Shown here in pieces: positions 3,758 to 5,825 of a stretch of DNA of 64,000 bases. The notes under the pieces were generated by a model. That model did not search any database, was not told the DNA's origin, and saw only the letters and a program-made list of their open reading frames with translations. A program made the translations under genes and the position numbers. Numbering within the stretch: the stretch's first letter is position 1; each line of letters begins with the position of its first letter. Source of the DNA: Candidatus Competibacteraceae bacterium (GTDB taxonomy: Bacteria > Pseudomonadota > Gammaproteobacteria > Competibacterales > Competibacteraceae); contig RXIV01000003.1 of NCBI GenBank assembly GCA_003989085.1, positions 186,001 through 250,000 on the forward strand, in the 5' to 3' direction.

Positions 3758-3786
3758 TTGACAAGGGAGCGAAAAGTCCGTAGCGT
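3758..3786 (+). promoter_or_regulatory. candidate sigma-70 promoter for retron ncRNA
   Basis: A perfect TTGACA at 3758-3763 is followed, after 17 bp, by TAGCGT at 3781-3786, which matches only half of the -10 consensus. Transcription would start near 3793, inside the annotated a1 arm. That would leave about 17 nt of a1 in the RNA. The -35 box is strong and the -10 is weak, so this is a candidate only. Confidence 0.4.
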
Positions 3787-4056
3787 AATGATTGCTGGAG
3801 CGTGAGGCGTTCCTCCATTAGCCGTTTGGGCGGCGTTGCGCCGTCCGGGAATTCCAACGCCACACACGCCACAAGGTAGGCTGTTCTTGGCCAGCTTCGC
3901 CGGTAACCGTCCCTAGTTGTCGGCGGAGCTGGGCCAACCACGCCACCGCGGTTTCCGCCAACAACTAGGGACGGTTACCGGCGGCTGGCCGGTGAGCCTA
4001 CCGTGTCCCTTGTGAGAAGTAGCGGTTTGCGCCTCACGCTCCAGCAATCCTTACGC
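3783..4056 (+). ncRNA. Retron msr-msd non-coding RNA
   Basis: The 349-bp gap between the SWIM and RT genes is filled by nested inverted repeats. The outer arms a1 (3783-3809) and a2 (4030-4056) are complementary at 26 of 27 positions. A TTAGC at 3818-3822 is in the right place to supply the branching guanosine (G3821). A small GC-rich hairpin around 3827-3847 would belong to msr. The msd candidate is a long stem: CACAAG/CTTGTG (3870-3875 with 4009-4014), GGTAGGCT/AGCCTACC (3875-3882 with 3995-4002), GGCCAGC/GCTGGCC (3889-3895 with 3984-3990) and a perfect 22-bp stem (3899-3920 with 3961-3982). The reverse transcriptase begins 17 bp after a2, the usual retron order. The exact msd ends cannot be set from sequence alone. 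Confidence 0.87.
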
Positions 4057-4072
4057 TCGGTCTGGATACGAC

Positions 4073-5371
4073 ATGAGCGAAACGCCCCCCACCTGGGAAG
4101 AAATCGCCCAAGTCGGCGATATCGAACGCTGGGTCGTTGCCCGGCTCCGACAACTCGGCTTGCTGGATGAAGTTACCGATCCCGCTAAGCTGACCGCCGC
4201 AGCTCTGCGCCAGTTCAAGGCGCGCCGCGAAGAAGAGCGCCGCGTCCGCAAACAACTGCGCCAGCAGGCGTGGGCCGCCTTCCGCCAAGCCCATTTGGTC
4301 CATCTCGGCGCGGACGTGTTCCACCATGATACGCCGGATCAAGACCGCTACGACCTGCCCGATCCCGAGACCCGGCGCGAAACCAACGCTTTGCCGGAGA
4401 TGAAAGACGCTCAGGCGCTGGCAAAGGCGCTCGACCTGTCCATTCCCCGCCTGCGCTGGCTGGCGTTCCACCGCGAAGTCGACAGCGGCAGTCATTATCA
4501 CTACTGGACCATCCCCAAACGCGACGGCGGCGCACGCTTGATCAGCGCCCCCAAGCCGACGCTGAAACAGGCGCAACGCTGGATTTTGCGCCAAATCGCC
4601 GAACGACTGCCGGTGCATGGCGCGGCGCACGGCTTTCTGCCCGGACGTAGCATCTTCAGCAATGCCGCCGTCCACGCCGGCGCACGCACCATCGTCAAAC
4701 TCGACATCCGCAACTTCTACCCTACGGTGACCTGGCGGCGGGTCAAGGGTCTATTTCGCAAGGGCGGCTACGGCGAGCAGGTCGCCACCGTACTGGCCCT
4801 GCTCTGCACCGAAGCGCCGCGCGAACTGCTGCTGCTTGACGGCAAGCATTACCATGTCGCCAGCGGGCCGCGCGCCCTGCCGCAGGGTGCGCCGACCAGC
4901 CCAGCCCTCAGCAACACAGTTTGCCTGCGACTGGATTGCCGCTTGTCCGGCCTCAGCCAAAAGCTGGGCTTTCGCTACACTCGCTACGCCGACGACTTGA
5001 CCTTTTCCTGGCATGACGCCACGCCGCCGCCGTTAGGACCCTTACTGCGCTGCGTTCGCGCCATTCTCAAGGCGGAAGGCTTTGTTCCTCACCCGGAAAA
5101 AACTCGGATTCTGCACCGAGGTCGCCGCCAAACCGTGACCGGCCTGGTGGTCAACGAAGCGCCGTCCGGCAGTCCGGCCCGGGCGCCGCGCGTTAAAGTC
5201 CGGCAGTTGCGCGCCGCTCTGCACAACCGCCTGAACGGCAAGCCCGGCAATGGGGAAAGCCTGGCGCAACTACGCGGCTGGGTCGCCTTTCTGCACATGA
5301 CTGACCCGGAGCGGGCCAAACCGTTTCTGGCGCAACTCAAACAACTGGAGGAGCGTGGCGCGGATGAGTGA
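4073..5371 (+). CDS. Retron-type reverse transcriptase
   Basis: This 432-residue protein has the RT core: LDIRNFYP with the first catalytic Asp near residue 209, LPQGAPTSPALSN for the QGxxxSP motif, and YADD at residues 305-308. Two retron signatures are present, NAxxH at residues 197-201 and VTG at 355-357. About 110 residues precede the core, more than in compact retron RTs. The enzyme would copy msd from the adjacent ncRNA to make a branched RNA-DNA (msDNA) in the cytoplasm. The QGxxxSP motif argues against a diversity-generating-retroelement RT, and no maturase or endonuclease domain supports a group II intron. The stop overlaps the start of the WGR gene by 8 bp, implying coupled translation. 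Confidence 0.92.
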   Translation: MSETPPTWEEIAQVGDIERWVVARLRQLGLLDEVTDPAKLTAAALRQFKARREEERRVRKQLRQQAWAAFRQAHLVHLGADVFHHDTPDQDRYDLPDPETRRETNALPEMKDAQALAKALDLSIPRLRWLAFHREVDSGSHYHYWTIPKRDGGARLISAPKPTLKQAQRWILRQIAERLPVHGAAHGFLPGRSIFSNAAVHAGARTIVKLDIRNFYPTVTWRRVKGLFRKGGYGEQVATVLALLCTEAPRELLLLDGKHYHVASGPRALPQGAPTSPALSNTVCLRLDCRLSGLSQKLGFRYTRYADDLTFSWHDATPPPLGPLLRCVRAILKAEGFVPHPEKTRILHRGRRQTVTGLVVNEAPSGSPARAPRVKVRQLRAALHNRLNGKPGNGESLAQLRGWVAFLHMTDPERAKPFLAQLKQLEERGADE

Positions 5372-5825
5372 GTGGCAAGTTTCCCTGATTTTTCAGGACA
5401 ACAAATCCAATAAATTCTGGCGGGCGCGCTGCATCGGCAACAATCTGGAAATCAATTTTGGCCGGATCGGCGCCCAGGGACAAAGCCAGGCCAAACGCTA
5501 CGATTCACCGGAGGATGCGGCGCGCGAACTGGAAAAACAGGCGCGGGAAAAATATAAGAAAGGCTATGTGGGCGGCGACGGCGGCCCAAGCGAATCGTCC
5601 GCGCCATCTGCCGCCGCGACCGAATCCACACTCACGCCTCCCGCCGCTTCGCAATGCGCGCTGGTCCTGACGCTGGGCGAACGCCGCCTGGAACTGCGCC
5701 TGAGCGTCGAAGGCAACGCGCTGCACACCCACGGCGTGGAACATTATCCCGACGCCTCCGCCGCCGAAGCCGCTTTTGCCCAAGTCCGGGCGGCTTTGGA
5801 GGCCGAAGGCTACCGGCCTCAATAG
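5364..5825 (+). CDS. WGR domain protein of the retron locus
   Basis: The 153-residue product has an N-terminal WGR domain (about residues 3-80). The characteristic turn is FGRIG, with Phe in place of Trp, followed by the AxRELEKQAREKYKKGY helix typical of the family. WGR domains in PARPs and bacterial MolR-like proteins bind nucleic-acid ends, so a role in contacting msDNA or damaged DNA is a reasonable inference. Residues 80-100 are an Ala/Ser-rich linker, and the tail (100-153) is a small alpha/beta segment I do not recognise. ATG 5364 is chosen because GGAGGAG at 5347-5353 sits about 10 bp upstream; GTG 5355 would be too close. The gene overlaps the RT and is followed 9 bp later by the HEAT gene. 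Confidence 0.82.
   Translation: MSEWQVSLIFQDNKSNKFWRARCIGNNLEINFGRIGAQGQSQAKRYDSPEDAARELEKQAREKYKKGYVGGDGGPSESSAPSAAATESTLTPPAASQCALVLTLGERRLELRLSVEGNALHTHGVEHYPDASAAEAAFAQVRAALEAEGYRPQ

Follow-up and report, generated by a model that had tools for sequence, protein, structure and literature searches.

A pair of long inverted repeats just upstream of a reverse transcriptase (RT) gene in a Candidatus Competibacteraceae genome raises the question of which RNA this locus encodes, how it is expressed and what it may do for the neighbouring proteins. The whole stretch of DNA analysed here (64,000 nt) is referred to as the window, and the features of the locus are collected in Table 1.

Assignment of the locus to type XIII retrons

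It is well supported by sequence that positions 3782-4057, located between the SWIM and RT genes, encode the msr-msd RNA of a retron of type XIII. The a1/a2 arms, a branching G, an msr hairpin and an msd hairpin expected of a retron non-coding RNA (ncRNA) are all present, and the folding energy is -176.7, compared to -108.0 +/- 5.0 in shuffled sequences. Given this z-score of -13.7 and that both repeats are the longest of their kind in the window, the structure does not result from chance. The first-pass annotation had proposed a retron ncRNA here, naming no type, and the adjoining retron-type RT (RT_XIII), the conserved branch motif, the arms and the covarying msd all bear this out. Rfam at its gathering threshold returned no match for the ncRNA, a tRNA being the sole match in the window.

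Table 1. Positions of the operon genes and of the elements of the retron RNA gene in the window.
Feature	Positions	Strand	Evidence
SWIM protein, 599 aa	1924..3723	+	PADLOC SWIM_XIII 466.7 bits
Putative promoter TTGACA-N17-TAGCGT; -10 over a1 5' end; predicted +1 ~3793	3758..3786	+	conserved across loci
a1 arm; outer ~11 nt probably untranscribed from local promoter	3782..3810	+	inverted repeat
TTAGC, candidate branching G at 3821	3818..3822	+	conserved motif
msr hairpin TTTGGGCGGCG-TTG-CGCCGTCCGGG, many G-U pairs	3825..3849	+	folding, alignment
Predicted msd, ~150 nt, reverse-transcribed part	3866..4018	+	ends inferred by analogy with Retron-Eco1
5' strand of outer msd helix, partner 3995-4006; almost unchanged between the two phyla	3871..3882	+	alignment
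5' strand of msd core stem; perfect 23-bp pairing with 3961-3983, sequence variable, covariation strictly Watson-Crick	3898..3920	+	
Apical region AGCTGGRCCAACC...GCGGTTT; mostly conserved, Competibacteraceae and Myxococcota class A copies	3927..3954	+	
msd core stem, 3' strand	3961..3983	+	inverted repeat, covariation
Outer msd helix, 3' strand	3995..4006	+	alignment
a2 arm	4029..4057	+	inverted repeat
Retron RT, 432 aa, motifs YADD, NAAVH, VTG	4073..5371	+	PADLOC RT_XIII 507.5 bits; Pfam RVT_1
WGR-domain protein of 153 aa; 8-nt overlap of its start with the RT stop	5364..5825	+	Pfam WGR 56.9 bits
HEAT/ARM-repeat protein, 958 aa	5835..8711	+	PADLOC HEAT-ARM_XIII 856 bits
WD40-like and HEAT-repeat protein, 2183 aa	9708..16259	+	PADLOC HEAT-ARM_XIII 1243 bits; Pfam HEAT_2, WD40

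The RT frame is intact, with its active-site motifs (YADD, NAAVH and VTG, read in 4073-5368), and its best PADLOC matches are retron RTs, which places it in the retron clade. RT_XIII, SWIM_XIII and HEAT-ARM_XIII are all matched in the operon, so that every protein family of type XIII retrons in PADLOC (RT, SWIM, WGR, HEAT/ARM) is shared, as is the position of the ncRNA between SWIM and RT. WGR is supplied by the 153-aa open reading frame (Pfam), a separate small ORF that sets the window apart from type XIII, while PADLOC WGR_XIII matches the adjacent HEAT protein only. The gene order also differs from that of Myxococcota relatives, being SWIM-ncRNA-RT-WGR-HEAT-HEAT in the window and HEAT-HEAT-SWIM-ncRNA-RT-WGR in theirs. 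No obvious toxic enzyme was found among the operon genes. A search of the host genome (3.5 Mb) revealed one RT copy and one ncRNA copy, linked to each other.

As in the window, Retron-Eco1 (Ec86) has a TTAGC branch context, an msr hairpin and an msd hairpin between a1 and a2. The window msd stem is, however, far longer, with a conserved apical region, and the operon encodes several proteins without a recognised enzyme effector. In scale, the window ncRNA resembles Retron-Mxa1 (Mx162) and Retron-Sau1 (Sa163), with a 241-nt transcript and a 162-nt msd (PMC6868368). The msr hairpin is preceded by TAGC in the window and by CAGC in several of the unlinked relatives, the latter being the motif reported for Mx162 and Sa163. 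In RT_outgroup loci, used as stand-ins for Mx162, no related ncRNA motif was found within 900 nt upstream.

Conservation and covariation of the msd hairpin

One scan yielded 29 loci. In 12 Myxococcota loci and 11-12 Competibacteraceae loci, the ncRNA immediately precedes the RT gene; the latter count includes the misbinned L030, the partial L010, cut inside the hairpin, and L006, cut after it. Wherever the contig extends far enough, SWIM precedes the linked ncRNA. TTAGC, with G3821 as candidate branching nucleotide, had been read correctly in the first pass. It is shared by every Competibacteraceae copy and by nearly all linked copies in Myxococcota, L017 having TCAGC instead. Among linked copies, the base and apical region of the msd are nearly invariant and the core stem varies, and conserved flanking motifs are 129 or 130 nt apart in every complete copy (L004 has an N run there).

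In the window, the 23-bp core stem is the longest perfect inverted repeat with a loop below 80. The inner helix had been described beforehand as perfect and 22 bp long; it is perfect, and measures 23 bp. Outer helices, at least three of which had been described with it, exist at 3871-3882/3995-4006 and 3887-3895/3984-3992. We examined covariation in 19 distinct sequences from Competibacteraceae and Myxococcota, which are related, so that their changes are not independent events. In the msd, 96.6% of cells are paired and double-sided changes occur in 35 of 53 pairs, in 220 cells, compared to 62.5 +/- 6.4 in shuffles (0/500 as high); control structures slid along the alignment had at most 44% of cells paired. 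Covariation well above both controls indicates that the msd fold, including the long stem, is real.

Across nine Competibacteraceae, mean divergence is 29.5% at RT fourfold sites, 18.3% in the stem, 2.3% in the apical region, 1.1% in the msr and 0 in the outer msd. Strong purifying selection acts on the ncRNA, whose stem changes freely only in pairs. These rates also bear on whether the locus could be a retron remnant or a satellite RNA without activity. Such decay has a precedent in Candidatus Competibacter phosphatis SBR_G (L014, 10001-11300), in which the RT frame is disrupted and the ncRNA intact. In the window, by contrast, the RT is intact with its active-site motifs, and the ncRNA evolves far more slowly than RT fourfold sites (outside the stem, 0-2% against 30% diverged), which makes an inactive remnant very improbable.

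Two other explanations of the stem were rejected. Positive selection in Competibacteraceae is not supported, as the stem diverges by 18% on average, below the 30% at RT fourfold sites, which L009 alone exceeds. An origin as acquired phage sequence found no match, either for three exact 20-25-mers searched against viral_contigs or for nine arms searched against phage records. In the host genome, allowing up to 3 mismatches, the window stem matched only itself. In a set of 27 non-redundant stem arms, palindromes of 4 and 6 bp, chiefly GTAC, occur in excess; since these arms share ancestry, the idea of restriction-site baits is only a lead.

Contig breaks or N runs occur at or beside the msd hairpin in L004, L006 and L010, and short-read assemblies therefore probably often lose the ncRNA. 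Moreover, the contig of L030, labelled as a Phycisphaerales metagenome-assembled genome, is plainly Competibacteraceae, a case of contamination.

Scarcity of G-U pairs in the msd

G-U pairs account for 2 of 845 paired cells in the msd (inner stem 2/637, outer helix 0/208), compared to 39/425 in a1/a2 and 43/177 in the msr hairpin, that is 9-24% in these RNA-only helices. The inner-stem depletion is significant (Fisher p < 1e-13); the short junctions on either side of the stem (columns 19-20 and 59-63), which do have G-U pairs, were tallied apart. Since a G-U pair in the RNA becomes a C-A mismatch in a DNA copy, this scarcity fits selection on the msDNA. It could instead stem from DNA-level correction of palindromes during replication.

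A strict Watson-Crick stem that does not tolerate G-U would also suit long inverted repeats acting as DNA palindromes, either as a terminator or as a protein-binding cruciform, and not as a template for reverse transcription. We give this explanation hardly any weight, as the RNA-only helices a1/a2 and msr retain G-U pairs, conservation extends to the branch motif, the msr hairpin and the neighbouring RT, and no T run follows the stem.

Promoter and length of the a1/a2 arms

Pairing of a1 with a2 (3782-3810/4029-4057) spans 29 positions, with 27 Watson-Crick pairs, one G-U and one mismatch (T3789/C4050). The single mismatch had been noted before, with a length of 27 nt that falls short of the 29 measured. 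The perfect 20-bp core of the pairing (3790-3809/4030-4049) is the only inverted repeat of at least 14 bp at 100-400 nt spacing within the 64 kb. A strong -35 box, TTGACA (3758-3763), and a weak -10 box, TAGCGT (3781-3786), overlapping a1, had also been recognised and are confirmed, even if a generic promoter scan called no promoter at TTGACA-N17-TAGCGT. This element is exact in every Competibacteraceae locus containing the stretch and in Paraliomyxa (Myxococcota, L026), where it sits entirely upstream of a1.

The usual spacing from -10 to +1 is 6-7 nt. Given that the conserved -10 lies on the first nucleotides of a1, this standard spacing would put the start near 3793. Probably ~18 nt of a1 are then transcribed, within the range of 15-23 nt in Myxococcota relatives. 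The arms had been called exceptionally long; as the -10 overlaps a1, the ~18 nt predicted to be transcribed are ordinary among relatives and the claim is mostly unsupported. Part of their great length, at least, comes from the promoter overlapping the repeat, and SWIM read-through could give longer forms; the full 29-nt a1 would be expected only in such read-through transcripts.

Alternatively, transcription from the SWIM operon or from a start located upstream could include all 29 nt of a1/a2, with a function for their unusual length. In favour of this, SWIM precedes the ncRNA on the same strand, complementarity is retained in all Competibacteraceae having both arms (perfect, G-U included, in L007 and L030), and a 7-bp extension past the mismatch is unlikely to arise by chance. 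Nevertheless, the outer a1 (5') strand is invariant and coincides with the conserved -10, whereas the outer a2 (3') strand changes without compensation, including a mismatch in L011. Moreover, the same promoter stands ahead of a1 in Paraliomyxa, and SWIM is separated from the ncRNA by 600-900 bp in L002, L003 and L007. We thus regard functional full-length arms as unlikely and favour a start inside a1.

Proposed mechanism

We are confident, short of certainty, in the following proposal for the window ncRNA. An RNA of ~265 nt would be produced from its own promoter, starting inside a1, and folded by a1/a2 pairing, and the RT encoded by the adjacent gene would bind it. This RT would prime on the 2'-OH of G3821 and copy ~150 nt, giving a branched msDNA that forms a long hairpin of DNA. 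The base and the apical region of this hairpin hardly vary, and its core stem is fixed in length and free in sequence. Most likely, proteins would read the conserved base and apical region, and the stem would serve as a fixed-length spacer. As long as phage infection has not disturbed it, the RT-msDNA complex would keep the SWIM, WGR and HEAT/ARM proteins inactive. Sequence comparison shows the gene neighbourhood, the covarying fold, a promoter-like element, the lack of G-U in the msd and, in linked copies, the motif spacing of 129-130 nt; 2'-5' priming, msDNA, defence and control of effectors are inferred from known retrons.

Unlinked ncRNA copies in Myxococcota

Type XIII is widespread in Myxococcota, where three arrangements were observed: SWIM-ncRNA-RT carrying the window-type ncRNA (class A), SWIM-ncRNA-RT with a different msd (class B), and SWIM followed directly by RT, with no inverted repeat of at least 12 bp between them (class C). 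A different msd lies between SWIM and RT in L031, L032, L041, L070-L076 and L078; where read, the msr hairpin of these loci is of the same GC-rich GGCGGCG..CGCCGTCC type. SWIM directly precedes RT, without an ncRNA between, in L023, L025, L027, L077, L079-L081, L084, L088, L091, L093 and L095. Over ~16-19 kb, four class C loci contained HEAT-SWIM-RT genes and no ncRNA match.

We searched 284 Myxococcota genomes with a covariance model of the msd core at 3869-4009 (R2). Matches were found in 17, often on contigs that had no type XIII RT match. Many genomes with class C RTs carry the ncRNA away from the RT. G537 has five copies on five contigs (L107-L109, L129, L130), G379 a tandem of three (L113, 7786-8690), G461 a tandem of two (L112) with a weaker third on another contig, and G423 two (L110, L111); other class C genomes have single copies. 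Many genomes with unlinked copies are draft or metagenome-assembled. Profile search found no RT near the unlinked copies, typically within 8 kb on each side and less at contig ends. L120 is an exception, its ncRNA lying downstream of a linked RT, and in L114 and L118 the ncRNA lies ahead of a HEAT gene near contig ends, so these may be operon-head copies and not unlinked ones.

When copies of equal length within one genome are compared, their outer msd differs by 0-4% and their stems by 28-80%. Perfect pairing in the stem runs for at most 24-31 bp in 9 of 12 copies; in three, among them the degenerate third copy of G379, the run is limited to 10-16 bp. In G461, the duplicated unit extends from the promoter-like element through a2, with unrelated sequence outside; the apical region of these copies is identical and their stems differ by 54%. 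Between other copies the apical region differs, by up to 62% within G537.

A second model, R3, was built from the unlinked copies. It matched 18 of 40 chosen genomes (39 with an RT_XIII-related match plus G349) and none of 40 genomes without one, a test that is not independent, some of the positives having served to train R3. Model matches were confined to genomes with type XIII RT or operon genes, with none in these 40 others. As an independent check, the class C loci L023, L025 and L027, found before R3, each have exactly one ncRNA in their genome, on a contig other than that of the RT, as judged by comparing contig numbers with accession numbers. All 18 class A genomes searched have the linked copy only. 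The class C genomes G428, G437, G471 and G505 gave no ncRNA match, so the rule that associates class C with unlinked copies is incomplete.

On balance, we lean towards a type XIII RT lineage that has lost its linked ncRNA and acts in trans on one or several unlinked copies. Duplicates extending from promoter to a2 would keep the base, the msr and often the apical region, and acquire new perfect palindromes as stems, giving a repertoire of msDNAs that vary chiefly in their stems, possibly as baits for different phage enzymes.

Implications

We found no experiments on type XIII, and no report of unlinked or multiple retron ncRNAs, in the open literature searched; in both cases the absence is weak evidence, as the 2020 classification paper lay outside the search. 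The window supplies a clean template RNA for type XIII, which is experimentally undescribed in that literature. Moreover, the G-U test provides a simple computational mark that separates reverse-transcribed from RNA-only helices, and it could place msd borders in any retron family. If the RT serves unlinked copies in trans, the picture of one RT and one template in retrons would be broken, and the diversity of msDNA stems would become directly testable.
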